Positions 1-63,278 of a DNA stretch of 64,000 bases are shown piece by piece; the stretch's first letter is position 1; every line of letters begins with the position of its first letter. The DNA is taken from NCBI GenBank assembly GCA_949752745.1, contig OX457027.1, positions 13,919,556-13,983,555 on the forward strand, given 5' to 3'. Origin of the DNA: Protula sp. h YS-2021 (lineage: Eukaryota > Annelida > Polychaeta > Sabellida > Serpulidae). The position numbers were made by a program, and so were the translations under genes. Below the pieces are notes generated by a model, which was not told the DNA's origin, did no database searches, and was given only the letters and a program-made list of their open reading frames with translations.

Positions 1-212
1 GGGAATACCCACATATATTATGCATAGTCCCCATGTGGGACTGCTATCTGGGTAACTCTAAAAGAGACAAAAGGGAGCAAAGGAAATAAAGTGAGGCAAA
101 CAGAAAATTAACTATAATGAGGTTGTGCGGAGGAACAAGAAAAACTTGCAGGAAACTGGGCATACATTACATGGAGGAAGAAAGTGCATTCTTGTACGGG
201 TGCGTTATTCAC

Positions 213-11071: not shown

Positions 11072-11335
11072 CGGAGCTGGTATCTAGTGGGCGGGATCAA
11101 TATAGGCCGGGAGATCTCTTGGTGTAATGAATGACAGCAACTAATACGGTATTGTATGATAACAGTTCCCTGTGTCAAGAGGTATCTTAGGAATTATCTT
11201 AGAGGCAAATTCTCATGAAAACACTCCGATACCACATTCTTCCACCGTGCTGTATAATAATATTTCACAGTATGGTTATGGCCGGTATGTAAATATGCTC
11301 AGGCAAACATGCTTAGATCTAAAAATAACATTGAC

Positions 11336-12135: not shown

Positions 12136-12149
12136 GGACAATTTTAAAA

Positions 12150-26899: not shown

Positions 26900-27880
26900 T
26901 TACAGTAACGAACATGTAGAAGACGTTTTCTTTGCAGTTTCTTTAGCGTTCTTTCCTTGGTTGTGACCACTGTTTTCTTTGTCTGCAGTTTGATTTGCCC
27001 ATGACTTAATGCTTGTTACTGGATCTTTCCAGCTGTTTGGATCAGACTTTCCGCTTTGCCCGTTTGCGGCATCCCAATTGCCCTCTTCAGGATTTTGATT
27101 GGTCGAGTCTTGACCTTCACCTTTGTCTGCAGGGTCACCTGATGGCTCTTGTTCTGCTGTAGCCGGTATATTTTCTTCTGTATTTTGATTGGTCGAGTCT
27201 TGACCTTCAACTTTGTCTGCAGGGTCATCTGATGGCTGTTGTTCTGCTGAAGTCGGTATGTTTTGTTCTGTATTTTGATTGGTCGAGTCTTGACCTTCAC
27301 CTTTATCTGCAGGGTCACCTGATGGCTCTTGTTCTGCTGTAGCCGGTATGTTTTCTTCTGTATTTTGATTGGTCGGGCAGTGAACTTCACCTTTGTCTGA
27401 AGCGTCATCTGAAGGCGTATATTGCTCAATGGGCTTTATTCTGGGCACATAGTTCATTAATTTACCAATAAGCTCGTCCATTTGCGGGCAGTTCCAGCTG
27501 TTCTGTACTTCAACATCAGGCTTACAGAAATCAATATATAGTAACTGTGTAAAAACCATGCTCATTGGTCCTTCAGGAGGCCACATTATCTTCTCCAATA
27601 ACAGCGGCACAATGGGTTTCTTAAGCGCGTCTGCCAGACTCACCTCCCTGCGGCAGTTAGCTGACAGCGAGTATTTGGGAGTGACACACGACAGAACGAC
27701 CTTACAGCCGCGCACTCCTTTGTCTATCTTCTCGTACAGTGAGTCGCCGCCACCCATCTGCATGATGTCCAGCCAACAGACATACCCCATTGATGTCAGT
27801 GTTTGGTACAGTTTCTTGATTTGCGGCTGTTTTCCCCATTGGTATGAAATGAATACTTCAGGACTTTCCACCTCGCTTTC
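26900..27880 (-). CDS. Copy B exon 19: second TIR domain, 30-residue repeats, CaaX box
   Basis: 981 nt, phase 0 in, acceptor ttcaatag. TIR2 occupies about the first 147 codons, from [20 protein letters not shown] through [18 protein letters not shown], a strand KVVLSC and [20 protein letters not shown]. The tail has about four degenerate 30-residue units rich in Glu, Gln and Asp (27090-27420). It ends in a Lys-rich stretch and the tetrapeptide CSLL, a prenylation-type box with Leu last, expected to favour geranylgeranyl transfer. Unlike TIR1, this TIR has no introns. Confidence 0.92.
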   Translation of the reverse strand, partial: ESEVESPEVFISYQWGKQPQIKKLYQTLTSMGYVCWLDIMQMGGGDSLYEKIDKGVRGCKVVLSCVTPKYSLSANCRREVSLADALKKPIVPLLLEKIMWPPEGPMSMVFTQLLYIDFCKPDVEVQNSWNCPQMDELIGKLMNYVPRIKPIEQYTPSDDASDKGEVHCPTNQNTEENIPATAEQEPSGDPADKGEGQDSTNQNTEQNIPTSAEQQPSDDPADKVEGQDSTNQNTEENIPATAEQEPSGDPADKGEGQDSTNQNPEEGNWDAANGQSGKSDPNSWKDPVTSIKSWANQTADKENSGHNQGKNAKETAKKTSSTCSLL

Positions 27881-31700: not shown

Positions 31701-34700
31701 AAACTAAGCAAGAAGGGGAACATAAAACAACATACAGAACGACATTGGAACATAAAAAACATATAGAAAAAGGGTAACATAAAAATAACTCATATAATAA
31801 CGAGGTTAACATAAAAACAACATACAGAACGACAAGCAGAACATCAAAATTACATATAGAATAATAAGGAAAACACAAAAATTGCATAGAGAACAACAAC
31901 GAGAACATAAAAACAACATACAAAATAATAAGGAGACCATAAAAGCCACTTACAGAACAACAAGAAGAGCATAAAAACTACACACAGAATAACATGGAGA
32001 ACATAAAACCACATACATAATAACAAGGAGAACACAAAACCAACATAAAGAGACCATAAAAACAACAGACAGAACAACATAAGGGAAATAAAAAAATCAT
32101 ACAGAATGACAAGGAGAACACAAAACGACATAGAGAAAGGGGAACATAAAAACAACACAGAACAACATTGGGGACATAAAAACCACATATAGAATAACAA
32201 GAAGAGCATAAAAACAACATACAGACCAACAAGGAGAACATAAAAACGACACATATAAAAGACGGATGAGCAGGAGCAGATGAACATAAAAGAAAGTACA
32301 GAACAAGAAACGAATATAAGAAAAATGAGAGGAAAAGAGGCAAACAAGGAGCACTAGAGAATGGGAATGACAACATTAAAACGACTGACGAAATCCGAGC
32401 GAAAAAGAGCAACTCTGTAAGTAGCTGTAAGACCATAAAGATCTTCAAGGAGAAGAGCATTGAAATTCCAAAGTTATTAAGTCTAAAAGAGACAAAAGGT
32501 ATTAAAGGAAAAAAGTGAGAGAAAAACAGGAAATTTACCATAAAGAGGGTGTGCGAAGGAACAAGAAAGACCCGCAGTAAAGTGATGGGCACACATTACA
32601 TGGAGGCAGAAAGTGCACTCTTGTACGGGTGCGTTATTCACCTTCTTGTCGATTTCCTCCACTTTCTCCACGGTCTCATCCACCACCACTTCAAGCTCTT
32701 GTAGTTTTTCTGTCTGTTCTGTGACGTCTGTTTTCAGTTCGTCCACGTTCTCATCGATCCTTTTCACGTCCTTTTCCACCTCGTCGACTCTCTCTTCAGT
32801 CTCGGTCACTCGCTCGTCAATCTGCTTGATTTCTTCCTTCTGTTCTGACACGTCTTCAGAGACGGATTGTAAGCTGGAAAGGGGGCGTGAAAAACAGACT
32901 GTACGCTGCAAAAGGGCGTAATAAAGGTCAAGGACCGCCCTATTGTTTTGGATGACTTCTGTTCTCTGTTACAAAGTCCTTTCTCTTGTCGTATTCCCCC
33001 CCCCCCAAAAAAAAAATGAAATAAAATAAAAAGATCAAATAAAAATTAAAAATCAACAAGGTTGGGTGGCTTTCAATAAACGAGCCGGGGGTGTAAGCTC
33101 ACATATGCACGCTCCAGTACGAGGGTGGGAGGGGGTCCCCGCCACTGGTAGTTATACACGGTGTCAAAAATCACTAAAACCGACCAACATACTTTGTGAA
33201 GGGCCTCTAAATGTACAACACACAGCAAAAACCTGCTGATATAACTGTGCCGAGTAGCAGATTTTTGTACAAAAGCCAAGCTGAAATGTAGAAACGTCCA
33301 TCTCGGCAATCGAAGGAAGTGATCTTATTTCCGAAATGGTTTTCATTGCGGCGTGGTTATGTCGCAAGGTTATGGCAAGTTCTATTGCATACAGACAAAA
33401 TAAATTAAAAGATAAAAAATCATTAAAATTTTATATGGCATATATCCTCGGAAATGTACCTTCTTCCTGCTAAGATATCCAGTGCATTCTGGGCGTGCTG
33501 TTTTAGGGTTGGATTGTTCAACGTTTCTGCAAAGTTGTAAGAAAATATGACTTAATTACATGCGAAATTTGTTGTAACTTGGGGTCTCATTGGAGCTTTA
33601 AATGCTGGATGCACATGAGTGATGAATAACGGATGTATATGAGTGATAAATGACGGATGCACATGAGTGATAAATGAAGGGTGCACATGAATGATAAATG
33701 ACGAGTGCACATGAGTTATAAATGACGGGTGCATGAGTTATAAATGACGGGTGCACATGGGTGATAAATAACGGATGTACATAAGTGATAAATGGCGGAC
33801 GCACATGAGTGATAAATAACGGAGGTACATGGTTGGTGGATGTGCATGAATGTTGGTGTTATTCAAGTTATTTATCAATTAGTACAGAAAATACCACGGA
33901 CAAGTTATTTTAATTTATGTGGGTGTGGGAGTTTGGTCCTGGAAGGAGTTACGGCTTAGCTTATGAAACGATATGAAAACTTTCGCATGTTGGTTCTGGC
34001 GTGGGGGGGCAGGTAGGAGGAGAGGGTTGCAACCTAGCACACCGGGGATCTGCCAATGAAAGTGGACAGTCACTTGCCTTCCAGATACGCCTTGTGTTCT
34101 GCCATCTCTTCCCGATAATTCGCACCGATGGTACCAAGTCTGTAGATACAATGGATGCAGTGCGTATCGTCGGATGTCTTTGAGATATCTACCAATGCTC
34201 TCATGTATTTCACCGCATATTTCTGATTAAAAAAAACAACAACACCAACAATATAACAAGAGTGTTTTGGAACATATATAAGAGTAAGAAGAACAGTAAA
34301 ACAATGAGGAAAATACAGGGCATTGTTTTCGTTCAGCATCAGTATATAATGCTCCTACATGCAGATGGTTAGGAACTACCACACGACTGACCGCCTTCTC
34401 ATCTGAAATTTTTTTTATGGGTTTGGAATAGCAGTCTATTCCAAGTATTCCCACAATGCCACTTTCACAACATTTAGCAACATTTTACAACATTTTAAAC
34501 CGGTTTTGGTTTTGACGCTTGGTTTTTATTAATAAAAAAAACAGAAAGAAACAAAAACAGAAGAGATGAAAAAAATGAATTCATTTTAAAGAGATTAACT
34601 GAAAAAAATATAAAAGAGTACATTTGACAAAATGGTAATTTGATCAATATTAATAATTTCGCGAATATATGATCATCTATAAGGTACGAACGCAGAATTT

Positions 34701-37700
34701 TCATACCCCCTTCCCCTCCTCCACTCTCTCCCCAGTCCACCGTGCACGAATAAGCCTAATCACACTCTCGTGCTTCTCGATAATCTCGTCAATATCAACC
34801 AATCAAAGTACAAATTAAAGTGGGTCAGGTCAGGATTTCCCCAAGTAATTTTTTTCATCTGGGCACTTTTTGTAAACTGTGCATAGGATGAGACTCCGAC
34901 ATTAAACCACTGCAATGTTTATGGGCAAGTGACAGGCAAGTGAATGTCGGTAATAAGAAAAAAAAACAGATTAATGCTTTCGGTCAGTATTTATGGCTAA
35001 CCTCTGCCAAGTGCAGAAAGAGGTGTGCACTAACACGATATTTCCCGTTTTTCTTCAGCTAATTTCGCCGGATGTTGAAAGTCTGATTTGGTTTATTTTA
35101 TGACGTCACCGGTCGATTGTAATATTTCTTCATGTACATCCCTCCCCCTACCATCAACCTACCCCCCCCCCCCCCATCTCCCAGGACTTGTGCATGGTCC
35201 CTGAAGAGCATTTTATACTCCAGTACGCGCCCATGTTTGTTATTTTGGTGCGTGCCTATAAAGGTTTAGTATATACGCACTTTCCCAAGTCCGGCCAGAT
35301 GGCAGAAGATTTCTGTTCCCATGGACGACATGTTGGGATTCTTACGCATACACGTAATGATTGCGTCATCATGCGGCAGCAGGTCCACTTGGCGTGTAGC
35401 GGCCAGTGTTTGCAGACTCAACAGACCTACGCCTTTGGTCTCCTCTATCAGCAGTGAATTCACTATCCTTCCTATCACTTCTTTGGAAAATTCCTGAACA
35501 AAAAAGGAAAGAAAGAAAAAACAAACAAACAAATAAAAACGAAAATGATTGTCGAACACCGGAAATAGGACCTGCGGGAGGACTGAATTAATGTGGTTAA
35601 ATTTAGGGTGTAATCCTATTTCTTCTTCCTATTTGAACTTTCATTTTGAATTCAGTACTCAGTTGCAGATCATTTAACGCTGCCGCATGCCATAGTCGAT
35701 GTGAAGGTCCCACAGAAGAGAGGCAGATCCCATACGGTAGTTGCGGATCCCAGAAGGGAGCTAGTAGGGGAAAGTGGGGCTTCTAAGCCACCCTGTGACG
35801 TCATAAAGTCACTTGACCCCCCTCCCACTCCCCCTAGGAGGCATAACCCTAACCCTAACATCCGCTGACGTCATCAGTTACATGACCTGTCAATCATCAT
35901 GACGTCATCAGTCATGTGACCCAAACCCTAACCCTATATGAGGAATGTTTTCCAGAGCATTATCCTTCCGTCCTGAGTAGCTCAGTCGGTAAAGCATAGG
36001 ACTCATGGCCGGTTCGAGCCCACCGATGGGTGGCGTAACCCTAACCCTATATGAGAAGCCCCTAGGACATACCATGGCACCCCCCTAGGTGACACTTCTA
36101 CCATCTGTCTATCATACCATCACTCAGTCATTCATTCACTCACATTCACTCACTCACTCACATTCACCCATTCACTCATTGTGGCATACCCCCCAGGAAT
36201 TACCATGAATCCCCCCCCGCAGCACGTGATTCATCAACCTTCCCTTTATAAGTACATTGCGAGTGCACAGGTGCCATTGTTGTGGTTGCTGTTGTTGGAA
36301 ATACATGAGGAGGAAGTGGCAAAATGTTTGTGATAAGTAACATTCTTTTTTTTGCGTTATAACCTTATGTTAAATCTTTTCTACACCATTCTCCAGAACT
36401 GCTCTATAGCTCAGTCAGTAGAGCGTAGGACTCATGGTTAAACCCATAGTCAGAAGGTGGTTCGAGCCCACCTATGAGCCAACATTTTTTAAACATAGTG
36501 ACCATATTTCTATGACTATTTTCACTGGTAACATTTAATTGGTCATATTTCAGTGGTCCTATTACAGTAGTAGCATATGGGTTAATACAGATCCGTAGGC
36601 CCCATAGTTAACGGATCTCGGCTCAGCGGAGGGAGAGTAGCTGACCCAATGACGTCATGATCTATTTATAACAGCACATATCTGAATTTATGCTGACGGG
36701 TCGTGCGAATAGGGGTTTAGCAAAGTGATTTAAATGCACTGAAGCGTAAAATTATGTTAACATTGATTGGTGCATTACCCTTTAATTTAAGGCATATGTC
36801 AATTCGATTATAAGGCACATAATGAGGAAAATGCGTTTAAGATAAGTTGTAGGACATTGATCGGTAATTTAAATAGACGGTGTATTAGAATATTCTTCAT
36901 TTATAAGTCCGATCATGAAGCGAGCACATAAAGCTCTACAATGAAATACCTATATTTGACTTCAACTGATTCGTTGGATACACACCCGGAAAACAGTTCA
37001 TGGGATTTCACTGTGGAATTGCCCAGTATTTTAACTGGAAAATGGCAATGTGCCTTGGGCGAAATATCATACACTTCTCATAATGAAGAACTTTATGTAT
37101 TTACTGATATTTGCGAAGAAAGTTTAATAAAAGGCCAAAAACGTCCAATATTGAGAATAATTTCGAGGCCTGGAGAAGTCATGACACCCTACTTCCTTGG
37201 CATGTCTAGGGAGAATATCCAACGAATTCGACTATACATGAGAAACAATCAACTTGAAGAGCCAGCTTATGACGGTGGTCCTGTAAGCTGCACACTCCTT
37301 TTAAAGCGTGTCGACGACTAATATGTGTTGGATATTCACCCGACCTCAATGTACATAAAAAGACGGAGTGTTACTCTACGTCTTCATTTAGTAAAACGAA
37401 TTTGAACTGACAACATGTCTCAGTGTCCCGAGTGTCAACAAATTTTCTCTAGAAATGATGTCATGTTAAGACATTTTAAATCCAAACACACAAATAAAAT
37501 AGAACCGTCAGATATGCCATTTCCGCCGCCTCCGCCACCGCCGCCGCCTCCGCCGCCGCCACCACCACTACCACCGCCACCACCACCGCCGCCGTCGCAG
37601 CGGCAGCAAGATATGGAATTACATGACGCACCGATACATATATTCCACCATCCTTGTACCATCACTTGTTCAGCACCGACAGGTGGTGGTAAAACCAGCT

Positions 37701-40700
37701 TCATAATTAAGCGGTGGTCCTGTAAGCCGGTGGCGGCGGCGGCGGAGGCGGCGGCGGTGGCGGCGGAGGCGGCGGCGGCGGCAATGGCATATCTGACGGT
37801 TCTATTTTATTTGTGTGTTTGGATTTAAAATGTCTTAACATGACATCATTTCTAGAGAAAATTTGTTGACACTCGGGACACTGAGACATGTTGTCAGTTC
37901 AAATTCGTTTTACTAAATGAAGACGTAGAGTAACACTCCGTCTTTTTATGTACATTGAGGTCGGGTGAATATCCAACACATATTAGTCGTCGACACGCTT
38001 TAAAAGGAGTGTGCAGCTTACAGGGCCACCGTCATAAGCTGGCTCTTCAAGTTGATTGTTTCTCATGTATAGTCGAATTCGTTGGATATTCTCCCTAGAC
38101 ATGCCAAGGAAGTAGGGTGTCATGACTTCTCCAGGCCTCGAAATTATTCTCAATATTGGAGTTTTTGGCCTTTTATTAAACTTTCTTCGCAAATATCAGT
38201 AAATACATAAAGTTCTTCATTATGAGAAGTGTATGATATTTCGCCCAAGGCACATTGCCATTTTCCAGTTAAAATACTGGGCAATTCCACAGTGAAATCC
38301 CATGAACTGTTTTCCGGGTGTGTATCCAACGAATCAGTTGAAGTCAAATATAGGTATTTCATTGTAGAGCTTTATGTTCTCGCTTCATGATCGGACTTAT
38401 AAATGAAGAATATTCTAATACACCGTCTATTTAAATTACCGATCAATGTCCTACAACTTATCTTAAACGCATTTTCCTCATTATGTGCCTTATAATCGAA
38501 TTGACATATGCCTTAAATTAAAGGGTAATGCACCAATCAATGTTTACATAATCTTACGCTTCAGTGCATTTAAATCACTTTGCTAAACCCCTATTCGCAC
38601 GACCCGTCAGCATAATTCAGGTATGTGCTGTTATAAATAGATCATGACGTCAGTGGGTCAGCTACTCTCCCTCCGCTGAGCCGAGATCCGTTAACTATGG
38701 GGCCTACGGATCTGTATTAACCCATATGCTACTTACAGTAACCACTCACATACACACGGCGTTTGAATAAGTACATGAAAGACCTCAGAGCATGGGAACG
38801 ATCAATAAATTTGAGAGTGAAAGACCTCAGAGCGTGGGAACGATCAATAAATTTGAGAAGGAATGAGATTTTCCCCCACACTAAGTCTGATGTTATGTGT
38901 TATGCTATAGTAGTGGGAAAACGATGCTTCTAAATCAACTTTAACAAATTTAGTTTTTGAAAACATATTATGTATAAAATTGGTTTTAGGATTTTACCGT
39001 GCTACTTATACGAATACTCTGAAGTGATAGTAGTGGAAAAACGATGCTTCTACACCAACTTTAACAAATTTAGTTTTTGAAAACATATTATGTCATGGTA
39101 CGCGAGAGAAAATATAAGATTTTTGCATATTAACACGTTTCAGACAATTCTGCCAACAACCTTTCTTGATGCTTTCAAGGAGCTGACTGTGCAATTTGTG
39201 ATGGTAAAATAGAAGTGGGGGTGAAGTGAAGTCATCATTCAATGCGCAGCCATAGAGAAGACAAGCAGCTTTAAAATTAGGGTGAACTTAAACATTACTG
39301 TGGAGCATGGACAATTTGGGCCATTTCTTCGAATCAAACGTGGAGAGAAATGGCTTGCTTTAGCATCATCCTTGTGGAAGATTGTGTGTCAGAACTTGAA
39401 AAACTTACGCAACATGGGCTTCAAACTGTACTTAGCGCAAACGAAGTGGCTTGAAGTCATTTCATACCTAGACATGCGCTATGTGAATTTTGTAGCATAC
39501 ATCACTGTTTGAAGGGACAGTATACAAGTATTACATCAACATGAATGATGGTGAATGGGAGACAATGCTTCAGGAGATGGATAACATCAACTCAGTCTTA
39601 TTGGCTGAGCAATGTGCAGAATATCATGGCAAGAAAGCTGTTGTTAAACTGCAAAAAGACAATCGGATGAAGGTGTCAAAGCTATCCAAGAAAAAACTGG
39701 CTGAAGTTTAATTGGGGAATATGGACATGCAAAATCAACTTGGACTTATCTGTGAATATTGTGGTGCTTACGATATGCTGAGGATTATGATTGTCACTGC
39801 CACAAGTGTAATTGCAAGATATGTGAACCAGACAACTTCTGCAACAAGTGTGGCTCACTAAGAGTATCTGGAGAGTAAGACTATTTTGGAAGTCATTTTC
39901 ATTTGCTTGTCAGCTTTCAGAGTGTGCAGACGTGTTTTTTCAACCGTCATACGGAGATATGAAGCAAGGATGGATGTAGAAACAAACGTATTTCAAGGAG
40001 AAGTACGCGGACCACATGATAAGTGAACTGGTACGTTTTGGGTCTGTTCAACAACAACTGCAACACTTCAACATCTATTGGGAACTTGCTCATTCCACGT
40101 TGAACTTGCCAAACTTACGTGAGGATTTCATCAAAGAGTGTGTGCTTTCAGACATTGACGGAGCTGAGGATTTTGATGTGGAAGCAGCGTATCACTTTGC
40201 TCGATTTGATCCAAGATGAAGTGAGAGAGTGGTTAATCTATATTGCAGTATAAGGCAGACATTACTTTGAGGCAATATATTGTGCAAAAAACATATTGTA
40301 AAGAAATGCTATTAGTTGTAAAAAATTTGCATGTTCAGTATGTTCTGCTTGTCAGAATGAAGATTGTCAAGAACATACTTGTCATTCCACATGTATCTAT
40401 ACATAATGGAATGAAGCTAAATATTATATTCATTTAGATAAAGTGTTAGACAATGCAAATCAACGTTGTGAGAAATATGGTGTAGATGCTATAAAATTTG
40501 ATGAATTAAGTAGTTTTTTAGTGCACATTGAAGATCAATGGACTCCAATTATTCACACCATTGTGTCAATACTTGATCTATAAGATATGTTGATATGTTG
40601 ATTGAGTTATAAAATGTAAGATATGTTGGTTGCATTGTAAAAATATGTTGACTGAGTTATAAGGCAAAATAAAATGTAAGATATGTTGACAAGTGGTGAT

Positions 40701-43700
40701 CGACATGGAAAGACTACTTAACCAATATTTACTTTAAGCCTGGTCAACCCGGGGCATGTTTGCTGATCCTTACAAACTTTATCACGTATTAAAAACATGA
40801 TCAACTAGTCACTCATTCCAATGTGAAGAAATGGTTGCAAGATCAAGATGCATTTAATTTACTACAACCTGTAAAATACAGGTTTAAAATGCAACGTGAC
40901 ATTACAGGTGTTATTGATGACATGTGGGATATTGATTTAGCTGACACGGGAAACATAGCTCCCTATAATGATGACACCCGCTTTTTATTGGTTGTCATTG
41001 ATGTGTTTTCCAAATATTTGTGGGTGCAGCCAATACCCAACAAATCACATACCAACGTCATAAAAGCCTTCCAAAAAATTTGTCACGAAACACAACGAAG
41101 ACCACGAACTCTAAGGTCAGATAAAGAAACTGAATTTAAAAACAGATAGGTAAAAGCATTTTTGAAGAAGGAGTGAATACATGCCTATACGACAAAGAAT
41201 GAAACCAAAGCCAACTTTGCTGAGAGAGTCATTCGTACTGTAAAAGGAATGATGTATCGATATTTCCTACATAATCAAACTTATCGTATATGGACATCCT
41301 TCCAGACTTAGTGTATAATTACAACCATAGAACTCATGGCTCCCTCCCTAATAAGTATGCTCCTGCAGATATTCGAAAAAAAAGAATCTAAAGTGTGGAA
41401 GTATATGTATGTAGACAAATTGAAATTGAAACCAAAAAACCCTACAAATTTAAAATTGGTGACCATGTACGCATTTCCCACATGAAATACGTGTTTCAAT
41501 GGGATTATCATATAAAGTGAACCAAGACGTCTTCATTATCACACATCGTTGTAAGAAGCAAGAAATACACTTGTATCGTGTGAAAGACTTTTTGGACGAA
41601 TATATTGATGGATATTTCTATGAAGAAGAACTGCAGAAAGTGACAAAAGATATTGAATCTGTCTACAGAATTGAAAAGGCCTTGAAAACACGAAAAAGAC
41701 TAGGTGTTAAATAATTATTTGTTAAGTGGTTAGGTTGGCCAAAGAAGTTTAACAGTTGGGTGAAAGAAACAGACATTCAAAAATGAAGCATCCATTCACA
41801 TGTTTGGTCTATGCACCTACAGGCAGTAGTAAAACTTCTCTAGTCAGGAAAATTCTAGAACAAAAGTTAATTAAACCCTCCCCAAAAACTATTTTATGGC
41901 TCTATGCAGCAGATCAGCCTTTGTACAAGGGAATGAAAGGTGCGGAATTTTACCAAGGAATTCCAGACGACATTGAAGAGCGCTTTAACCCCCAAAAACA
42001 AACTTACTCATCATTAACGACTTAATGACCAAATGTCATAGTGATGAGCATATGATACGTCTCTTAAGTGTTGGTAGCAGTCATCAAAATCTAAGCATCA
42101 TTTTCTTGTGCATAATTTGTTACATCATGGTAGAGAAATGCGAAATATTAGTTTGAATACACATTACATCATTCTGTTTAAAAATCCTAGAGACAGTGAA
42201 CAAATAAGTAGATTAGCGCGGAAAATGTATCATGGCTATCATGACTATTTATTAATTGATTTGAAGCCAAAGACAAATGATCAACTATGCATTCGTACAG
42301 GCATTTTACCAAAAGATACACACTATGTATGTGCTGATAAAGTAGCGTATGAACAAGAACCAAGTCACTTGACCATTCGCAGTCAAGATGTCTAAACGTA
42401 TTCAAGCTAACCAGCCTTTTCTTCAGTTGCTCGCACGCAGACCTGAACGACGTTAAATCTTGCTACAAGCTACCAAGAAGTTATTAACTAGCTTGTTTAA
42501 AATTTGTTTAAATATATTGCGAGGGCATTTACCCTAAAGCTCAAAAAGGTATAAGGAATTCAAGTGTAAGATAAGAAGATTTGACTTCGAAGAAAAAAGA
42601 AGTTTGTTAATCAGAAAGGAGGAATCATTGGAGCTATTGCGAAATTCGCATCACCCTTGTTAGCTCAGTTGCTGTTAAAATGAAAATGGTCCTCATTCCT
42701 GAATATGAATATAAAATGTTAGAAAAGAAGGGAAAAGATGGTGGAATCAAAACGAAAGTTAATAAACTTTTACGTGGGAAACGAACTTGTGAAAAGGCAA
42801 TAGAAATGTCTCAAGTTCTTGTCGTCATTTACGAACAATTCAGTCACAGCAACAACATCAAAAGTCTGTTACAGCATTCAATGCAAGGAAAATCAGAAAA
42901 GTCGCAAGGGTTTCTAAACCATTTTCAACCTATTTATCATGTAAAACTAACACAACTTCTGGCAGAACTTAAGAGACATGGTACGAGATGGCCAGATAAA
43001 AATGAATTTGTTTTAAAAACGGGTACTATCATAAAGAATTCCAACATTATTGATTTGTTGAAAGAAGTATTGGTTGCTACAAGAAGAAAAGAACGACGAG
43101 AACCACCACATGGTTGGAAGCAGTTTATTGAGGAAATTTTAGACGCTAATATTCCAAAAACTGTTTTTTGGCAAAAAGACAACCCGTGAAGATATTACAA
43201 AAGAGATAAAACGACGTCAACAAAGGCTGTTTCCAGGAGGATGGGAAATTTTTTAACATGGATTAAAGAGTTATGGTGTTGTTGTTGTAAAGAAAATGAA
43301 AATAAAAATAATATTCCTATAAAAATTAGGTGTATAAGTGCTTGTTGTCAAGGAGAAGTAGTAGACAGCAATGTAAATCATGTAGACAGCAATGTAGATT
43401 ATGTAGACAGTGTGTCAAATATGAAGTAATGTATATAGACAACCAGTCTATCTACATCACATAAACGATTTAGCCGTCATGGAGTCAACAGTTTTTACAT
43501 TACTTTACCCGGAAATGTAAAACGTGTCAGAAGGAGAAAGGCAGTTAGAGGGATAACATCAACAAAACATAAGAAAGATATCTTTTGAAAATGTCTTTCA
43601 TTCATAATCATTCATGTGAATGTAGTCTTCCTCCATTGGAATGGTTTCACATACCCCCAATGCAAACTGCTGTAGAAAAACGTTATAATGTAGACTATCA

Positions 43701-46700
43701 ACCACTTACTACCATTAGAGAGGGTGCTCCAATAGAATTTTACATTCCTGCAAGTACAGAAGAATATCTAGATTTAAAGAAAAGTAGACTTCATATTGTT
43801 TTCTGCATTGTAAAGGGTGATGGAACACCGTGTGGTGCAGATGATAACCTATCATGTATCAATGATTTGTTTAATTGGTTATGGTCCAATATTGAATTAT
43901 TTCTGATTGATGGTTTGGAATCACATAGTAACAATACCCATGGTTATACCAGCATTATATCCCACCTCATTCATGATTCGGAAGAAAGTCTCAATTCTGA
44001 GCACTCTATGCGTCTTATCTATAAAGATACTGCTGAATCAATGAATACTAATGAAGTGAAAAGGGCTAATCATGAAAAGTATGTATCAGTTTTTCATGTA
44101 AATGCTGAGGGTGGTGATCTAGCTGAAGCAGGATATGATGGTTTACATTAACATCAGTTGTATACACGTCTAAGCCGTGAGTTTATGCTTTCATGCTTTA
44201 AGGGTAGATTTGTTTGAGCAGGATCGCTATCTTCCCAGTGGCATCAGTATGAAATTGCGTTTACAGAGACAAAAAGATGAATATGTATTAATGGCTGCAA
44301 ATAATGGTTTTAATGTAGAAGTGAAAGATGCGTTTTTAACCAATGGCAAAGTGAGGGTTAGTCCAGGTATGCAGTTGGGACATACAGATGCATTGATGAA
44401 AAGTCCTGCTAAGTTTCTTACTACTAGAAAAGAATGTAAAATTTTAGCCATTCCAGCTGGACTTCAATCTTTTGTGAAAGATAACATATTTTTAGGCCAA
44501 TTAACAAAACGTATTGTTCTGGGACTAGTTCTTAACGAATCCTTCGCTGGAACAGTATTGAGAAATCCATACAATTTTGAACATTTTAATCTCAACTACA
44601 TCCAACTTTACACTGATGGTGAACCAGTCCGATCCAAACCTCTCACGCTTAACATAAATCAAGGCAAATATCTTGACGCTTTTGAAACTCTTTACAAATC
44701 TTTTGATAAATTGAATGGAGAGAAAAGTTCCATCATAAAACGGGAAAATTGGCCTAGAGGTTATGCTTTATTTTCTTTTGACTTAACACCTGATTATGAT
44801 GGTGATGATCATTATGCCCTTACCAAACATGGGAATTTGCGGCTAGAGATGAATTTTGCCGGTTCCTTGCAAAATACAGTCAATGTTATAGTCTATGCTG
44901 AATTTGATAACATCATTGAAATAAGTGCAAATCGCAGCATTCAGTTCGACTACCAGTCATGAACACGAAGCAGATAGAGGCCGTACTGTTCCATGATGTC
45001 ACGACAAAAGACTTGTCATCAATACAGACGATCATGATGAGCCAGGAGAGCATTGGGTGGCAGTATATTATGACAAAGACCCTGCAGAATATTTTGACTC
45101 TTATGGACTTTTACCTATAGACAGTCGTTTGAATAAGTTTTTAACGTTTAATTTCATTTATAATTCAGTTCCATTACAAACACCGATATCATCTACATGT
45201 GGATTTTATTGTGTGTATTATATAATTCAAAGAGCTCGATGACATAGTCCTTTTGAAATCATTGCTGTATTAAGAAGAAGTGATGATGATTTTGTTGTAA
45301 AGAATTTTGTATATAGACATTATAAACCATTATTTTATTGATGTTGTATTAGTGGAATTAGTTAAGATGTATTAGTTAAGTTGTTGGTAATTGTCAATTT
45401 TATTTGTTATAAATATTGTAAATAAAAACAAGACAGTTTTATACAACATTCTTTTTTATTGTGTTATGCATTATTCCCATTTCAACAATTATTTTACATT
45501 TCAACAAATCTATTTAACATTAAACTTTTTTACAACTGCATTCAATACCTTAATAAACGAATGCCATTCATACCAATCTAAATTAATATATGTATCATAG
45601 ACATTATACCCACGTTTTTAAATGTTATGAAAACTCACATAACACTGTCCATTACCAAACTTTATTATTTTAACATTTTTATGTTCAGACAGTTTCAGTT
45701 CATATCTATGTTCATTCATGTCTATGTCCATCACCATAACCCACATGGGATGCGTCAGCTCAATGGACTAGGTTCCCCGCATGATTTGCATTTTCAAGTC
45801 CTCTTTAGAATGCACGGGTCAGGTTCTTTCCAATCCAATGCTGTAACAGAGCACACCATTCCAGTGTGTTTGGGGTGATGTAGTCATAGCGTTCTGTAAG
45901 CTCGTCATATTGGCGAAATCGTACAAACACGTCTAGACAGTTCTCAGTCACACGCACTTCTAAATCATTTGACAGCACAAGAAGAAAGCCAGGTATTCTC
46001 AACTTCTCTAGATGGTCTTTCAACACGGATTGTTCATCAGGCGATAGAATGATATACTTTCCAAAATGTCTTAGCACAATGTCATCTCAGATATGAGAAT
46101 CCATCTGTAATGCTTTCATAATCGGATAAAAAGTCTTCCATCTCTTTCAACAGTCAGATTAACTATGAGCTGTCTTCTTGTCTTCTAAGCCTTTTATCCA
46201 CTTCTTTCACTTGCTTTTTTAGCATTTTCCATTCAGGTATTGTTAGCAAAATACCCTTTTTTGTAGGACGGTTTCTTCCAGACCCCTCATCTCTGAGGTA
46301 CTTGCGAAAGTTCACAACTCCTCCAATGCTTTGTTTCATAACTTTAATGTACTTTCCATTTCCTAGAGAAAGCATTCCATCTCACGAATGTGGTGGTGTT
46401 GGTGGTGTCTCCACTTCCAATTTCTTGATGGTAGTGGTGGTAGTAGGATTTTTAACTTTTAAGTCTTTGACTGTAGCAGCAAGAGTATCCATATCAGTTG
46501 CAGATCTCTTACGATTTGTGACTTCCATGTTAACGCTTCAGTGTTTACACCTTCAATAACTCTTACGTTGGACAACCTCTCCCTTTTAAAATGTTGCCTT
46601 GTAATGTCCGTGCGCTAAGGTGGAATAGCCATCATTCAACACATATCGCTTGTCGTCATATTGGCAAAGGGCTTCTTTCCTCAACTTCTCCGAAAAAGGC

Positions 46701-49700
46701 TGGTGGTCATGACTTTGAATAATGTGTCCTGTAGCCATCGTTTGAGTTTGTTTGAAAAAATACTGTATATGTTTAATGCGTCTTTGACAAGCTCGAGTGA
46801 TGCCTTTGGCTGTATGTTTTTCTTTCCCACCACACATCAAACTGCACATTTTTGGTCCAACAAACTCTTCAATTTGGTTGCCTGCCGCCTCATCCTTTAT
46901 TTTCCCAAGCAATTTTTTGTTCACGTTGGAATGCAGGAAGTGATCTGACGGATAGTCACTTGTGTCGAACAGGTCAGCATCTTGTTGCATATCCTTGTAG
47001 ATAACTTCCGTTTCTATGTCATAGCATAGACTGTCGGTGTCGCTGAACAACAACTTGGCATTGGGATACTTGACAATGATGTAATTGTAATGAAAATCAA
47101 ACATAAGCACTTTGCTGTGGTCGAGAATGGTAAAGCCAACTTGAATGGATTTATCCAGAACCAAACCCACTTTACGCAAATGTACGGCAGTCAAATCTTC
47201 GTTGAAAATTTTGAATTTGTGGAGAGAAGGCTTGGTGACAAGTTTCTTGAACCGCTTTTCCTTGTGAACAAGTTCAACATTGATTCGCTTTCTCACATTT
47301 TCCATGGTTTTGTCAAACACAGAGTTGTTCATCAGTTTGAAGAAGTCTTTCTCGAATTGATTCTTGGCCAATTTTCTCTTTTCCGTGTTCAAGGTAATGA
47401 ATTTTGCCAACCATTTACTCTGTGCAATCATGATGGCACGGTGCACTTTGGTGACTTTCAACCCCAGTGAGACGTACTGCTGCAAACTCCTATAATGAAG
47501 CACATATTTCTTCTTGTCACACAAGTTAGGAATGAGCTTTTCACTAGGTTTGTCTGTCATGTTCAGATCTTTCCGTAGCTTCTGACTGTACTCTGACAAT
47601 TCTCCAACTTTGATACTTTTCCATTCTGGATCCACTGGGTAGTGATTATGACGATAATGGAGTGAATCTGGGTATTTCAAAAATCCACTTCCAAAATGCA
47701 TCCAATATCGTCATCTTCAGCCACATCCGTAAAGTCGAGGGATTCTGGCTCGCTTACCCACATAAATTCACTTTGGGGCATGCTTTTTGACATGGCCCAG
47801 CCATACCAGTTGTTTGCGTCGAGGTACATCACATAGTTGTTTGGTATCTCAAAATTGTAATCTGCTACGTAGGGGTTATTTGCCTTCGCATACTTGTGCG
47901 TGATCACAGATATTCCTCCACGTATGCCTTGCTCAACCATTTGGTACATGTCAATGTCAGTGATTAATTCCAACTTCACCTTTGTCGCTTTTAACATAGC
48001 ACCCCACGACAGTCCTGGCGCTTTATAATAATGAGCAGGATCCAATTCATACGTGTTGAGGCATACTTGACGAAAATTTTCAAACGCGTCAGCTAGCAGT
48101 AGCACATCTGATTTTAGGCATAGGTCGTGGTATTCACCGAATGTGGTACAGTTGAATGTATACCATACCTTCTGCGCATGAGCATAATCCTCATCGCTAA
48201 TGCCCCTTTCGCTGAGCTGACTGTAAAACTTATCCTTTGATGGTAGCTGCGTTTCAGCAAACTTGGATGGTTCATCCACGTAATCTTAGGGGTACACTCC
48301 CTTTCTCAACAGCAAATATTGTTGGTCACTATCGTGAATGTGAGAAGTCATGTTGTAGAAGTTATCTTTCCCTTCTGCCGCAAGATTGGATACTTACTTC
48401 TGTAGAGAGGTGCTCATGAACTGAAAGCTGTCCTTAAATTTCAGATTGCTCATGGTGAATGCAATATATTTCTCAATGGTGTTGGAAATAGCCGTAATCG
48501 TTTCGTCTTTGAATCTCCCAATTTCCTCCATGATCAAATGACTGTCATAACCTCGCAAATTTGGAAAAACACAGGAATGATAAAAGAATCTTTATCCCCT
48601 TGCTTATCCTTCTAAGTCGGAATTGCAATTTGCACTCACTATGTGAGCCCGCGGTATTTGCCATCGATGTGGCAAATGTAGCAATCAACAGCGTTCTCAA
48701 AATTTTCTTGGTCCTCACGGGTCATCACAATATCCTTTGGTTGCTCTAAACCACGCACAATACGATCACGCTCATTCACCATATGGTCTAAAAGGCCTTT
48801 ACGGCATTGTCTCTTCGATGCACGACTGGTGCACGTACTGGCTAACTGGCTAACAACCACATAGGCAAAGCTCTTTGGACGGTGATGCTGATACTTGTCT
48901 ATTTCTTCATGCTTTTGTGTGAAACATTCAAAGTCAGCATAAATCACAAAAGGTGTTTTCGACTGAGTTGTATCGGAACAACTACATCTTGTTGATATCC
49001 AAACACGTTGATTGACACATCGTTCTCCTTTTCAAACTTTGAACTGTCCGTAATCGGTGTGGGAAATGTCATGCCCTCTACCTTTAATTCCTTCTCAAAT
49101 GGTTTGTAATGACTCACGCGATATGGGTGTTCCTTATAAGGGTATGGGTGAAGGTGAGCCAATACTGACCATAAGAAACGCTTGTTGTCACCATTCTTAA
49201 TGTTTAGCACACCCTTCGTATTCTTCACTTTCTTCGGCAGTGTTATAAAACTGCTTGCTTCCAGAGGCACCAACGTAGCTGTATGTACTTCAATGTACAG
49301 TATGTTATCCAACACCCAGCCAGAGCCTTGTCGCTCATGTTCGTCAAACTTAGTAAACAATTCTTTATAGGCTTCTGGCAAGTCCTGTTCAATATCTGCT
49401 GGATTGTATGTGCCTCAAACAATTCCAAAGATGGAAATTCTACATTGCATTCATGGCAGAGGACTGGTGTATTCTTGACTGGACTGGCTGCTATTGTTGT
49501 TGTTGTTGCATCAATTGCTTAAACTGTTATGGTGAAATGTGGGTCTTGCCCATCCGTTTATAATACCTAGACATGCACTGGTGCACTGCGGAGACATCTA
49601 GCGGAGAGCGATGTGTTTTGACGCTATTCAAAGCATCAAGATAGGCTGTTGACAGAATCGCCTGAAACGTGTAAATATGCAAAAATCTCAAATTGTCTCG

Positions 49701-52700
49701 CGTGCCATGATATAATATGTTTTCAAAAACTAAATTTGTTAAAGGTCTTTCACTCTCAAATTTATTGATCGTTCCCATCCTTTTAGGTCTTTCAGTTACT
49801 TATTCAAACGCCGTGTGTGTGTGAGTGGTTACTGTAATAGGACCACTGAAATATGACCAATTAAATATTACCTGTGAAAATAGTCACAGAATCATGGTCA
49901 CTATGCTTAAAAAATGTTGGCCCATAGGTGGGCTCGAACAACCTTCTGACTATGGGTTTAACCATGAGTTCAACGATCTAGTCACATGACGTCACATAGT
50001 CACATAGTCACATGGTGTCACTTAGTCACATGACGTCACATGACGTCACATAGTCACATAGTCACATGGTATGTGGGCTGATCATGTCATTGAATTAAGG
50101 GGAGCTGGTCCTCCGATTCGAACACATCTTGTGAATGGGAGAAGCTTATCATTCGAGCACATCTTGTGAATGGAGAGCTTGTCAATCAAACACGTTCTTG
50201 TGTGAAGGGCGCGTGCCATTCAAACATGTTCTTGTCAATGGCGTGCGCTCTTCACCCCTGCCACAGAAAAAAGTTGTGTCGCCCATAGGTGGGCTCGAGC
50301 CACCTTCTGACTATGGGTTTATCCATGAGTCCTACGCTCTACTGACTGAGCTATAGAGCAGTTCTGGCAAATGATGTGGAAAACATTTAGCATAAGACTA
50401 AAACGCAAAAAAAGAAAAAAAAGAATGTTTTGCCACTTCCTCCTCATGTGTTTCCAACAACAGCAACAGCAACAATGGCACTTGTGCACTCGCAATGTGC
50501 TTATAAAGGAAAGGTTGATGCATCACGTGCTGGGGGGTGGGGTCCCATGGTATGTCCCGGGAGGAGTATGCCACAATGAGTGAATGAGTAAAAGTGAGTG
50601 AGTGAGTGACTGTGAGTGAATGAGTGACGGTATGATAGACAGATTGTAGAAGTGTCACCTAGGGGGGAGGGGGAGGGGGGTCCCATAGTATGTCCTAGGG
50701 GGTATGCCACAATGAGTGAATGTGGGTGAGTGAATGTGAGTGAATGAATGACTGAGTGACGGTATGATAGACAGATGGTAGAAGTGTCACCCAGGGGGGT
50801 CCAATGGTATGTCCTGGGAGGTGTTATCATATAGGGTTAGGGTTACGCCACCCATGGGTGGGCTCGAACCGGCCATGAGTCCTATGCTTTACCGACTGAG
50901 CTACTCGGAACGGAAGGATAATGCTCTGAAAAACATTCTTCATATAGGATTAGGATTAGGGTCACATGACTGGTGACGTCATGATTTACAGGTCACGTTA
51001 CCTTATGACGTCACAGGGTGGCTTTGAAGCCCCACTTTCCCCTACTGGAGTTGCAGATCCCGCAGAAGAGAGGCGTATCCCATACGGTAGTTGCGGATCC
51101 TAGAAAGGAGGTGCAGATCCCGCAGAAGAGAGGCGGATCCCATACGGTAGTTGCGGATCCCAGAAGGGAGGTACAGATTTCACAGAAGAGAGGCAGATCC
51201 TATACGGTAACTGCGGATCCCAGATTAAGAAAGGTGCGGGACCCCAAAAGGACAGAATCTTATAACAATAGCGGACGGAACAATTTGTGCCAAAAATAAA
51301 TGTTTAAATAAATAATGAACTAATGTGTAAAAAACATCCACACACAAAAAGTAAAAAAAACCATAGCAAAAATATATCTTCCTTTGTACTCTTTACTATT
51401 TTTTTACAAATGATTTCTTATGTGTGAAAATTTTTGACAACTTTTTTCACAATTTCTTACCACTTTTATTTTATCTTGAACATACCTGTGGATAAATTTT
51501 GGCCATTTGCCAGATGAGAGGCAGCCCAGTGCCCAGGAAGTAGTTTTCTAGATTATCGAATACGGCGTTGGCTATTTCATTCACACGTTTTTCAAACGGC
51601 GCCGGATTGGCTTGGAAAGCTTCAATAATCTGACCTAGAACAGCAACACCTTTCGTCAGTTGTGATGTGGTTGGGATACAATTAACAAGTAATTTTTACG
51701 ACGTTAAATCAACGTTGGATATACGTAGCACCCGATGTTGGATCAACGTCGGGTTTTGGTTCTTTATGGAAGTCTAAACAAGGTCTGCTATCCGACGATA
51801 GACAGACGTCGATTATCCGAGATCTTGTCAACATTGCGTGCAAAAAAGAAGTAGAAACAACATCTGTCTTCCAATGTTTCATGGCCGTCGGAATAATATT
51901 AATCGAGAATTGCATTCTAGACAGGGACTTTCATAGCGCTGTCACTCCTAGGTCAAAGTACCCCAACTCTTGAGTTATCCAGTAACGCAGGATATGCATA
52001 AAGTCGATTTACATGAAAAATCTCTCCTGAAATTGTCATATTTTCTTTTCTCATTTTGATCTATTTTCCAATTGACGTGTATGGCTACCATTTCTCGTGA
52101 TCATTCACATGAGGAGGTTGTTTTTTAGTTGTGGGCCAAACTTCAATACAACATCGATTTTCCGATGTCTGTTCAACATTGCACCACAGTTTCAACAACG
52201 TTGCACTTTAGAACGACGTTTTATAAACGTCAGAAAAATGATAATCTCGAATAGTCAGCTAGACAGCAACAATCATAATGTGGTCAACCCTCGGTGTCAA
52301 AGTGGTCAACTCTCCGTTAAACTGGCCACCTCCCGTCAAAGCGGTCACCAGTCCGTCAAAGTGGTTACCCCTCCGTCAAAGTGACAACCCCTCAGGTCAA
52401 AGTTTTTACATCTCAGTCGGAGTGGTCATCCCTCCGTTAAACCGGCCATCCCTACTTCGAAGCGGTCACCCGTCCGTCAGAGCGGTCACCCCTTCGTCGA
52501 AGTGCCTCAATAACTGGTTCATCCAGTAAAAGAGGATATGTATGAGATCAATTTTCATGAATATTTTTCAAACAGAAGAAAAGCTCGCGCGGTTCGGTTG
52601 TGACCAACGTGTACTAAACGTTAATTTCTCGGCCTCTGTATGTCGTTGATTTTCCGATTTCTTGTCGGTTTGTAGAAAAAGGTTTATGAGACATAGAAGA

Positions 52701-55700
52701 AGGTTGGATTTTTGATATTGACTTGCCGGGGTCCCGTTGATATTGATACACATTGGAGAAATTTTAGTTTTTGTTGCGATCAAAAACAACGTCTAAACAA
52801 CATCGATTATCCAACATATATTCAAAATCCGACCAATACCAACAAAATTACAAATAAATTTTATGTTGCGACTGGGTTGCATTTTCCGTCGCAACCTCAA
52901 ACCAGTGTTGATCGATGTTGGAATTATAAATTACAAATTAATTTTTTAACGATACAAAATTGTAGAAAAACTACAGGAATGAGGAAGGGGTTTAAGCCTT
53001 AACCTATGTTATGGACGCTGACATTTTCCACAAACTCATCTATGACATCACCCATGCGGTCCTTCATTAACTCGGCGATATTGCCGCGAAGCGAACGGAC
53101 AATGTTGTTGGCATCTCGGCTCATGATTTCATCCTCGGATTCGCGTAGCTTCAGCACAGTTTCAAACATCGGTTTGACGATTTCCATTTCACCGTGGTGC
53201 TGTAACAAGAGAGCATTTTGTTCTCAAATATTTAACGGGGGCGCGTTCATTTGGCTGCCCGGACAAATGACCATCCGCAATTTGACCATTCACCATTTGA
53301 CCATACCGCAATATGTCTATCCCCTTAATAAAAAACGGACATTTATCCAGATGGCCAAATGTCCTATATCCATTTAATGCATATTCACTTATTTTGACTT
53401 TTAGGTGAACAGTTTTGTTACTGGTCAAAACTATTTTCATATTGACTCAAAATAAGTCAACATATGTTATGTTACTTGGCTTTATTACAAACAACTGCAC
53501 TATCTATCCACATTGGCGTGTCACATGTCAACAATAAAAATGATTGACTTGGGAATGGACGAATCAGATTACAGTATTTGTCAAAGACTGTCAACAATAA
53601 AAATGATTGACTTTGGCATGGACCAATCACATTACAGTATTTGTCAAAGCCATGCATAAACACAGCTGGCGTTTGGAGAAAAAACTTGTGTAATGTAACA
53701 AACAAAAAGCCGATCTATATACAAAAATTAGTTCCACACTGAGCAAAACTTTCATTTGTCAAGTCTCAAGGAAACTTAGCATTTTATTGTATTACTTGCT
53801 TTTAAGCGCCGAACTGAACAATTATGTTTAAATGATATTTCCGTTATTCCTTGTTGCTGTGTAACAGCCAAGCGCCAAGGAGTTGCCAGTGATGCCACGC
53901 AGCCAGCAGGTCTAGCGAACCCCCGTTATTGTTGGAGAGAATTGAAGAAATAACTAAAATATCAATATATCTAGGTTCAAATCGATGACTGACTGTTCAT
54001 TGGCTTGTTTCAGAAACTGTATGCAAAGGAAAGGGGCACTGCCTACTCGCTGGATGTAGTTCTCCATGATTGTCTTGCACAGATGGTGATTGACTGTGTT
54101 TCTCTCTGGATTGTTTGGATCGATCCATTCTCCTTTCGCGCAGTAGTTAAACACTTTAGTGACGACATCAACAATGGCGATTGCGGCGCGGTTGTTCACA
54201 ACACCACCTTCCCTAAAAACACCCAACCAGAGGATCAGGCATCATCATTTTGATAGGATCAAGCATCACCGCCCCTGAAAACATACCAACAGAGGATCAG
54301 GCACCTTCAATTTGATAGGATCAAACATCACTGCCCCTGCAAACAGCCCACCAGAGGATCAGACACCATCATTTTGATAGGATCATGAATCACTGCCCCT
54401 GAAAACACACAACCACAGGATCAAGCACCACCATTTTCATAGGATCAAGCACCTCGGCCTCTGAAAACACACAACCAGGGAATCAAGCCCCACCACCCCT
54501 GAAAACGCACACACAACCAGAGGATAAGACACCACAGCCCGTGCAAATCCTACACCGGAGCATCAAGCAACTCTCCCCTCCCCTAAAACTCACTCTCGGA
54601 GGATCAAGTACCACTCTCAATGAAATTCACTAACAGAGGAGCAAAAACCACTACCCCGCAAATCCTCCATCGGAAGATCAAGCACCTCTGCCCCGCAAAT
54701 ACACCACCGGAGGATCAAACAAAACTGCCCCTGAATATAGAGGAGCACCACTAGAGGATCATACACCACAATTTCGACAGGATTAGGCACCACAAATTAG
54801 GATCATGCACTACTTTGTTTACAGGATGCAGCGCCACCATTGTGATGATGTATCACTTGACCTATTAGAACTCCACTGACTCAGGAAAGCATAGAAACTG
54901 TGGAAAAGCGGCGCCCTTTGCAGCGGCATCCTTGTAAATGTAAGTAAAAGTTGTTAAAATTTACATACGCCATGCTTACATCTGCATATAAGACGAAATA
55001 AACTATCAGATTAACAAAATGAAAACTACGTTTTCGCACTTCTATTGCAATCAGTGCTGTGGGTTAGATTTGAGCAATAATCGGCCGATTAAATTTTCAC
55101 AGTTTAGAGCAACAAAAAGCAAAAAAAAAATAATAAAAAAAAAAAAATGTTATGAAATGTTTTTTCAGTTTAAAGTCTGAGTTTTCAGAGATTTAAACTA
55201 AATAACAGCAATGAACTTACATTAAACTTCGAAAAATGTGTATCCAGAGTGCTACGATGGCGTTGCCCAGGTCTTCACTGTAAGGCATCTCTGGATAATC
55301 CTGGACCACCTCGTACGTTCTCTCCATCACCGACCGGATTCTATCCACGTGTTTCTGTACAGAATATCATTTTCTACTTTAAATTTATTTATACAAATAG
55401 TGATATCAAGAATTAATTTTGAGAGTAAAAATTCACTTTTTAGTATAAATTCATGATGTATTTGCATACAGTTTAGGTGAGTTATTATCTCAACAAATTT
55501 TTGATCCAATAAAACATTTTTGTTATCAGTACATATAATTTTTGATCTCAAAAGTATGTGTTGATGCCATAAAATACTCAAACACATCAAAATTTACTGA
55601 TAGAAAAATAATTTAATGATACCGAAAATTGATTTTAGGGAGCAAAATTCTAGATAACAAAAATGAAATACTTAGCTAGATCTTACTTATGAGATCAATA

Positions 55701-59624: not shown

Positions 59625-59879
59625 AGCTGTGATTTAATATTTATATGCTCCAATATACCATTATACCACGTAAAATACTTCACCTTTAAACTTTCATAGC
59701 TGGTGCATATATGTATTATTCAAATATTTGGATTTTTCCATGGCTTTGCAATATTACACAAGCACAAGTATCACGATTACTCAATAGCGAACATGGATCT
59801 TTATAATAAGCTGTAGGGGTTTTATTTGTTAGCTGTCCTTGACCTAAAAGGGACTCACAACTGCTGATTCCCAGGGGCC

Positions 59880-60080
59880 GTATTCACAAAAGTTAACTTT
59901 ACACACTGAACTGACTCCGTTAACTGTTCATTTATCAAACAGAACTTTTGAAAGTTAATTCATAAATTTTATTTTATATTGAAACAAATTCTTGTAAAAG
60001 GTATCTGCTTAATTTAGTTAAATCAGTAGCTTTCGCTTTTGCAGTGTACAGTTAACTGCAGAGCAAACTTTTGTGAATAC
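59880..60080. mobile_element. MITE with GTATTCACAAAAGTTAACT termini, copy B
   Basis: About 200 bp, counterpart of 10873-11071, about 255 bp upstream of the start codon. Confidence 0.75.
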
Positions 60081-60439
60081 TGGGGCTGGTGGCTAGTGGG
60101 TGGGACCGGGGATCTCTTGATCGATTCATTGTAATGAATGACAGCAACTAATATGGTATTATATGATAACAGTTCCGTCTGTCAAGTGGTATCTTAGGAA
60201 TTACATTGCAAGCAAATTCTTTTGAATAAACTCCGATGCCACATTCTTCGACCGTGCTGTATATTAATACTTCACAGTATGGTTGTGTGTCGATATGCAA
60301 ATATGCTCAGCCAAATATGAATAGATCTAAAAATAACATTGACGTAATGTCAAGGCCACAGCATACTGCAATTCTGGGTTATATCGTGTAGTGTGTTCGA
60401 TCTCCTTAGGTAACTTCAGATATATAGATCCCAGAAGGC

Positions 60440-62855: not shown

Positions 62856-62869
62856 GAAAAATTTATAGT

Positions 62870-63212
62870 ATCTCTGATTACTTTTATTTTTATATTTTAT
62901 TACAGATATTTATAGAGCGCTTAATTCTGATAAGCTACAAGCGCTGTACATAACAATTTGCAATAATACTAACATACATGTAATAATACTAACAATAGAA
63001 AATACAAAATAGACTAAAATCAAATATTAAGATAAAACAGCTATGCATCTGGACATGCAACTCTATAAAGATACGTCTCAAGCTGTTTTTAAAGTAATAC
63101 ATATTAAAACTGTTCTTAATACTAAAAGGTAATGAAATCCAAATCCTTGGCGCAAAATTTACGAATGTTCTGTCTTGTAATCTAGTAGCAGTTTTATTTT
63201 CATTGAGCAGTG

Positions 63213-63278
<66 letters not shown>

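Follow-up and report, generated by a model that had tools for sequence, protein, structure and literature searches.

How one Maverick end came to stand twice in a single insertion: a probable integrated snap-back genome in an annelid

Polintons, also called Mavericks, are typically 15-25 kb long and carry a protein-primed DNA polymerase (PolB) and a DDE integrase, according to the parts of PMC6431247 used here. In a 64,000-nucleotide stretch of the genome of the serpulid annelid Protula sp. h YS-2021 (GenBank assembly GCA_949752745.1, contig OX457027.1, forward-strand positions 13,919,556 to 13,983,555), hereafter the window, an element spanning 36569-38733, 2,165 bp in all, has the matched termini of such a transposon, and both of its halves are the same Maverick end, one of them inverted. 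The question raised by this locus is how one end of a genome came to be present twice, in mirror image, within one insertion. We consider it likely that the window element is the integrated snap-back genome of a Maverick. It is a member of a class of fold-back elements in the same genome, and fold-back copies of Maverick ends have apparently arisen repeatedly, inserted into chromosomes and spread in some families.

A first-pass annotation, made from the letters alone, had described the element as a fold-back of near-perfect inverted halves with matched termini and exact 6-bp target duplications, and this description is borne out. The two arms are 98% identical across 1016 columns, the duplications included, and the first 953 nt of each differ by 6 substitutions and 4 gap columns. 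The window has exactly two copies of the terminal sequence AGTAGCATATGGG, one at 36569 and one on the minus strand ending at 38733, where shuffling gives a chance expectation of 0.04 matches with up to one mismatch. TACAGT stands on both sides, and a 6-bp target duplication is the rule for Polintons. Both halves follow the one Maverick end far past its terminal repeat of ~170 bp. The centre is asymmetric: its ~150 nt at 37577-37727 are made up of the start of an ATPase gene, a 17-nt remnant of a hairpin and a 15-nt filler, which together with the preceding C matches 37273-37288 (16 nt). The features of the element are as follows.

36563..36568, no strand: left target-site duplication TACAGT, present as a single copy at the empty site 49831-49836
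36569..37576, plus strand: left arm, from the Maverick terminus inward, running on to the hairpin; eight further loci of the family match it at 88-93% identity
36941..37321, plus strand: open reading frame 1 (ORF1), 126 aa, open in the left arm
37415..37701, plus strand: start of a zinc-finger / polyproline / packaging-ATPase gene, ending after the Walker A motif; its C2H2 match is below cut-off
37696..37712, plus strand: fold centre, remnant of the hairpin CAGCTT-AATTATG-AAGCTG, read from the other strand
37713..37727, plus strand: 15-nt filler GGTGGTCCTGTAAGC, identical to 37274-37288, the mark of a one-sided deletion of ~120 bp at the centre
37728..38733, minus strand: right arm, inverted copy of the left arm, with the ORF1 copy frameshifted
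38734..38739, no strand: right target-site duplication TACAGT

As to what an autonomous Polinton holds, terminal inverted repeats and the 6-bp duplication are found in the window element; its arms are accounted for and leave no room for PolB in the 2,165 bp, the rve integrase is absent from it, and the packaging ATPase and capsid genes are represented by just the first part of the ATPase.

The integration is genuine, as the first-pass annotation had also held, since the target duplications are accompanied by an empty site in the same window. The element lies inside the left terminal repeat of another, older Maverick; the terminal repeat at the right end of that Maverick (49627-51046) is paralogous to the target. 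This right repeat holds a single uninterrupted TACAGT, and thus the pre-insertion site is kept 13 kb away.

35763..51046, no strand: host element, a decayed Maverick of 15,284 bp, with the window element inside its left terminal repeat
49831..49836, minus strand: empty integration site ...CCTATTACAGTAACCACTC..., where TACAGT stands once, its context uninterrupted, in the host's right terminal repeat

The left arm was then compared with its own 863-Mb genome, which gave 49 matches (the best 40 of 262 candidates scored). Eight loci carry the same Maverick end at the identity given above and read on through the fold point. The junction of the window element itself was found once among the left-arm matches listed, and pairs of inverted termini led on to many other fold-back Mavericks. 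One kind is 8.1 kb long, with five centres that read alike, two of them with a one-base difference in the loop; the 7.5-kb fold-backs are the same family with one-sided deletions near the centre; two 7.1-kb copies have a different centre. Further fold-backs measure 5,990 bp, 5,386 bp, 3.5 kb, 1,245 bp and 1,065 bp, and an 8,555-bp palindrome with different termini (AGTAGTCTATGC) represents a separate lineage. At three loci (L050, L053 and L061) one-sided deletions of ~0.5 kb lie beside the palindrome centre with differing breakpoints, and these are perhaps stabilising events.

The 6-bp duplications are exact and mutually different in all nine elements of the 8.1-, 7.5- and 7.1-kb kinds, one of which (C4:11.08M) was read whole and the others at their ends and middles; they are exact also in the window element, the 8,555-bp palindrome and the 5,990-, 5,386- and 1,065-bp elements, and match at 5/6 positions in the 1,245-bp element. 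Exact duplications are therefore found in 14 of the 15 elements with both ends read and compared, a count that leaves aside the 3.5-kb element, which has lost one terminus.

At every fold centre for which a relative reading through the fold point was found (5/5), the relative has a short hairpin at the turn, with a stem of 3-6 bp; this, together with the further fold-backs, upholds the likeness to snap-back genomes that had been suggested for the window element. For the window element the full hairpin CAGCTT-AATTATG-AAGCTG is present in four of the eight relatives reading through (e.g. L034). At the fold of the 8.1-kb family, loci L070-L072 read CTGCCTC-CTAATAACC-GAG-TTTG where the palindromes read CTGCCTC-loop-GAG-GCAG, and L059 and L069 have the same hairpin with one loop change; moreover, between 1158 and the fold at 4036 the 8.1-kb arm is 90% identical to L059. 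At the 7.1-kb fold L059, about 90% identical, reads AGC-TCCGGT-GCT at the turn. For the element at C5:2.66M, which has a further deletion near the centre in one arm, L070 reads ATTT-ATACTA-AAAT, and its identity to the arms is 99.5-99.8%, which suggests a recent fold. The 1,245- and 1,065-bp pair folds where relatives (L034) read CCACC-loop-GGTGG across the Walker A codons. For the five stems together (3, 3, 4, 5 and 6 bp), a microhomology model with uniform bases gives a probability of 3e-6 that they arose by chance.

These observations suggest the following scenario. The replication mode of Mavericks is deduced from their PolB, and we take them to be protein-primed and to pass through an extrachromosomal stage. 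In such end-primed, strand-displacement replication outside the chromosome the nascent strand would begin at one terminus; on meeting a short hairpin, its 3' end would fold back and copy the strand itself as far as its own 5' terminus. The product would be a double-stranded palindrome with two identical, genuine Maverick ends. Such a molecule could be inserted by a Maverick's rve integrase, leaving a 6-bp target duplication. In the case of the window element, the strand would have folded on CAGCTT-AATTATG-AAGCTG in the ATPase gene, and a later deletion of ~120 bp with the templated 15-nt filler would have made the centre asymmetric. An explanation of this junction by three template switches was also considered, and was replaced by hairpin snap-back plus later deletion with filler, which takes fewer steps.

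If one end with its integrase gene is mirrored, the two integrase copies are expected in divergent orientation. With the 8.1-kb element's integrase as query, 153 matches were obtained, of which 150 were tallied (the best 150 of 7,103 candidates scored); the pair counts are therefore minima and favour loci closely related to that query. At least 144 merged loci resulted, with neighbouring pairs within 8 kb being 18 divergent, 2 convergent and 5 tandem, and 104 loci single. All 18 middles of the divergent pairs were read, and 17 contain inverted repeats, some of them near-perfect palindromes of 7-8.6 kb. Among the PolB matches listed, none lies within 8 kb of the divergent pairs (0/18), and 37 of the 108 other integrase loci have a same-strand inward PolB within 7 kb, 14 of them with an open PolB frame that reaches 1351 aa or more. 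The genome thus has Mavericks in which the PolB and integrase frames are uninterrupted, and these could act as helpers. The integrase of the larger fold-backs matches PF00665 at 5e-15. Its open frame is 256-263 aa in seven copies of the 8.1/7.5-kb kinds, shortened from 374 aa; in the 7.1-kb copies the 374-aa frame is open in one arm each, and the elements at C5:2.66M and C1:41.93M have frames of 366 and 370 aa open in both arms. From the missing PolB and, in the window element, the missing integrase, we infer that enzymes would be supplied and the elements mobilised in trans; the fold-backs are probably helper-dependent.

Some other arrangements were met in the same survey. At C4:76906941-76917191 five tandem integrase matches, spaced ~2.4 kb apart, lie near a 1381-aa open PolB frame. 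The convergent pairs, C9:33788153/33789801 and C2:35530717/35536191, belong to more distant integrases (~40% identity) and are possibly fold-backs of another gene order. At C3:98126045-98130955 PolB fragments are convergent and inverted, and in the piece read there (L079) an ATPase-like stretch is surrounded by repeats, both inverted and direct.

The arms also carry information on what happened after the fold. The outer 1,500 nt of both arms were aligned for seven 8.1/7.5-kb elements, with gap columns dropped. Of 55 variable columns, 45 have the same state in both arms of all seven elements and 10 show a variant private to a single arm in a single element, and no arm-specific variant is common to several elements (0/55). 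The element at C2:27.02M supplies many of the concordant columns, and when it is left out, 16 concordant and 8 private columns remain. In the central part (five elements, ~600 nt, loop excluded) 7 columns are concordant and 6 private. The private variants, of which C4:11.08M has 5 in one arm, look like changes after insertion, while the concordant arms could reflect a hairpin stage passed through when the element moves, or else gene conversion between the arms; we would favour a hairpin intermediate as the cause of the homogenisation. A wider proposal may be built on this, which we advance tentatively as somewhat short of an even chance: snap-back Mavericks might be self-perpetuating satellites, whose arms would be homogenised by half-length hairpin copying, whose polymerase would be borrowed from resident Mavericks, some having their own duplicate integrase, and whose repeated origin at chance hairpins would leave a fossil record of the defective genomes of a protein-primed virus.

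A number of points weigh against the snap-back reading. All palindromes rest on one assembly, in which polishing could even out the arms. No close parent of the window element is among the left-arm matches listed for the assembly, and the remaining four of its eight relatives have AAGATG or AAGATA on the 3' side of the stem, which is weaker. For the 8.1-kb family, the more distant relatives L067 and L068 are without GAG at the fold; in its outer 1.16 kb the arm matches L059 in no more than a weak terminal-repeat stretch, and L070-L072 were read at the fold region only, so the parent is known at the fold, not at the terminus. The 3-bp stems are weak singly (P about 0.05 each), and the probability model assumes uniform bases while the sequence around the folds is skewed in its bases. 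Composite arms are seen in the 1,245- and 1,065-bp elements, where parts that match the other end of the 2.8-3.0-kb derivatives are joined to the ATPase start, and the centres are rearranged in L042, L043, L046/L058, L050, L053, L061, L063, L065 and L066. In the integrase survey, the middle of one divergent pair (L064) has no inverted repeat. The PolB counts draw on 84 listed matches to PF03175 (the best 89 of 4,183 candidates scored), and one fold-back, at C5:28.72M, appears to carry PolB in its arms, as the piece read is a 2.8-kb palindrome with divergent PolB matches just outside. Strict homogenisation has a counterexample near the centre, where 1/14 columns is arm-specific in two elements, and in the 7.1-kb pair 11/14 variable columns are arm-private and 3 concordant.

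Among the alternatives, the one that survives best is that the elements are non-autonomous transposons with long terminal inverted repeats, which arose by chromosomal break repair or template switching at a fork, moved in the ordinary way and had their arms kept alike by gene conversion. The palindromes of sex chromosomes are a precedent, in which chromosomal gene conversion keeps the arms alike, and such conversion would also account for the concordant arms here; microhomology and templated filler also fit template switching of the repair type. However, five different fold centres with both ends read keep a Maverick terminus on each side, as a nascent strand starting at the terminus would predict (though integration selects for the same arrangement), and arm-private variants have persisted after insertion, as in C4:11.08M. 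We regard this alternative as unlikely. It is very unlikely that two Mavericks inserted head to head, or that inverted elements recombined in the chromosome, with a deletion following. Nested insertions do occur here, the window element itself being inside another Maverick, but a single target duplication encloses the whole palindrome, the one 8.1-kb centre recurs at five loci whose duplications all differ, in several cases the fold coincides with a hairpin in a single relative (loops of 6-9 nt), and no inner termini or separate duplications were noticed in the fold-backs read. An assembly or sequencing chimera, in which an inverted join of reads made the palindrome, would be of a familiar kind, since long palindromes are known as artefacts; against it stand duplications that are exact and different at many loci, the empty site beside the window element, a centre recurring in five separate copies of which two have their own loop difference, variants private to one arm in single copies and termini on both sides, so that we hold it for highly improbable. 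The last possibility, a plain deletion derivative or a miniature inverted-repeat transposable element (MITE) with long terminal repeats, has hardly any probability left, for although true derivatives of 2.8-3.0 kb do exist in the family (L032, L033 and L036, also L034 and L035), the first three keep two different ends where the window-element halves share one end past the terminal repeat, and no full-length relative with the whole 1 kb at both ends is among the left-arm matches listed. Exact 6-bp duplications flank L032 and L033, and none is clear at L036. A MITE is a short non-coding element, whereas the window element has coding arms and relatives of 7-8.6 kb with integrase. The 19.5-kb locus at C2:30.6M was considered as a full-length parent and rejected, as it appears to be a 2.9-kb derivative that contains another element.

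For the snap-back reading there are parallels among known systems. Adenovirus left-end inverted-duplication genomes and the palindromic or hairpin derivatives of pGKL-type linear plasmids are likewise palindromes of one end in protein-primed linear replicons; they differ from the fold-backs in that they are not known to be integrated. Adeno-associated virus (AAV), in the parts of PMC8235507 used here, forms 5'- and 3'-snapback genomes, subgenomic self-complementary palindromes of one end that are described there as replicating with Rep and helper functions, and template switching is proposed for its non-unit-length genomes. The fold-backs are alike in that both halves are the same genome end inverted (with composite arms in the 1,245/1,065-bp pair), but AAV is a parvovirus with its snapback genomes in particles, while those here derive from Mavericks and are inserted in chromosomes, with footprints of the integrase type. 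Ordinary Mavericks of this genome have rve integrase, PolB, ATPase and terminal repeats, in line with what PMC6431247 describes in those same parts; the fold-backs hold one end twice, mostly lack PolB and measure 1.1-8.6 kb. The Foldback/Galileo transposons share very long inverted repeats, yet Galileo is grouped with P elements by its transposase in the parts of PMC3573991 used here, whereas the fold-back arms are a coding genome end whose enzyme, where there is one, is an rve integrase with a 6-bp duplication. In the open-licence PMC literature, as far as searched, no description linking Polintons with snap-back genomes was found; a Polinton derivative that resembles a snap-back defective genome and yet is inherited as a chromosomal insertion is new as far as can be told. 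If the reading is true, the self-primed turn-round recorded here, of a strand started at the terminus, would give physical evidence that Mavericks replicate outside the chromosome by end-primed strand displacement, and defective snap-back genomes of a DNA virus-like element would be inherited, spreading and diversifying as transposons, with junctions readable in the genome sequence. Annotators would then need a class for fold-back Mavericks, because these are easily mistaken for repeats with long terminal inverted repeats or for misassemblies.

The genes in the arms of the window element are less clear. ORF1 had been labelled penton-like, and this label gains no support from any comparison made: no Pfam family matched, the protein database search returned one candidate and no relative, PDB sequences gave nothing usable, and viral contigs searched with ORF1, the fold-back integrase and the ATPase held no relatives. 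An AlphaFold model of ORF1 is predicted to be all-beta at low confidence (predicted local distance difference test score 60.6), with no Foldseek match at E<=0.001. A frame of 125-126 aa without stop is kept in four related loci (L032, L034, L036 and L038). In the ATPase gene start the Walker A motif was read by eye as APTGGGKTSF in the 37577-37727 region; the gene continues in the related loci, where the DNA resembles the 8.1-kb element's ATPase gene at ~66%. Named relatives of the ATPase are mostly from bivalves, and one is labelled as a Sedimenticola metagenome-assembled genome.

The host element at 35763-51046 is an older, decayed Maverick, as seen from its terminal repeats, a near-duplication of its target (GGAGCT/GGAGTT, 5/6 matching), an rve match just under the cut-off and a weak PolB match. 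Its open reading frames at 43573-44962 we take to be like a major capsid protein.

40793-41149: rve-like piece of the host Maverick, 4e-7 but 30.6 bits against a cut-off of 32.6
47677-48285, minus strand: PolB-like piece of the host Maverick, DNA_pol_B_2 0.0028, below cut-off

The window has two diverged copies of a ~13-kb region, 53-12844 against 32478-35760 plus 51052-63639. The host Maverick interrupts one of them, and the other is therefore an approximate empty site for the host. Elsewhere in the window, an open reading frame with a TIR domain (PF13676, 1.5e-21) lies at 26903-27871 on the minus strand, with tandem repeats of 90 and 102 bp inside and beside it.

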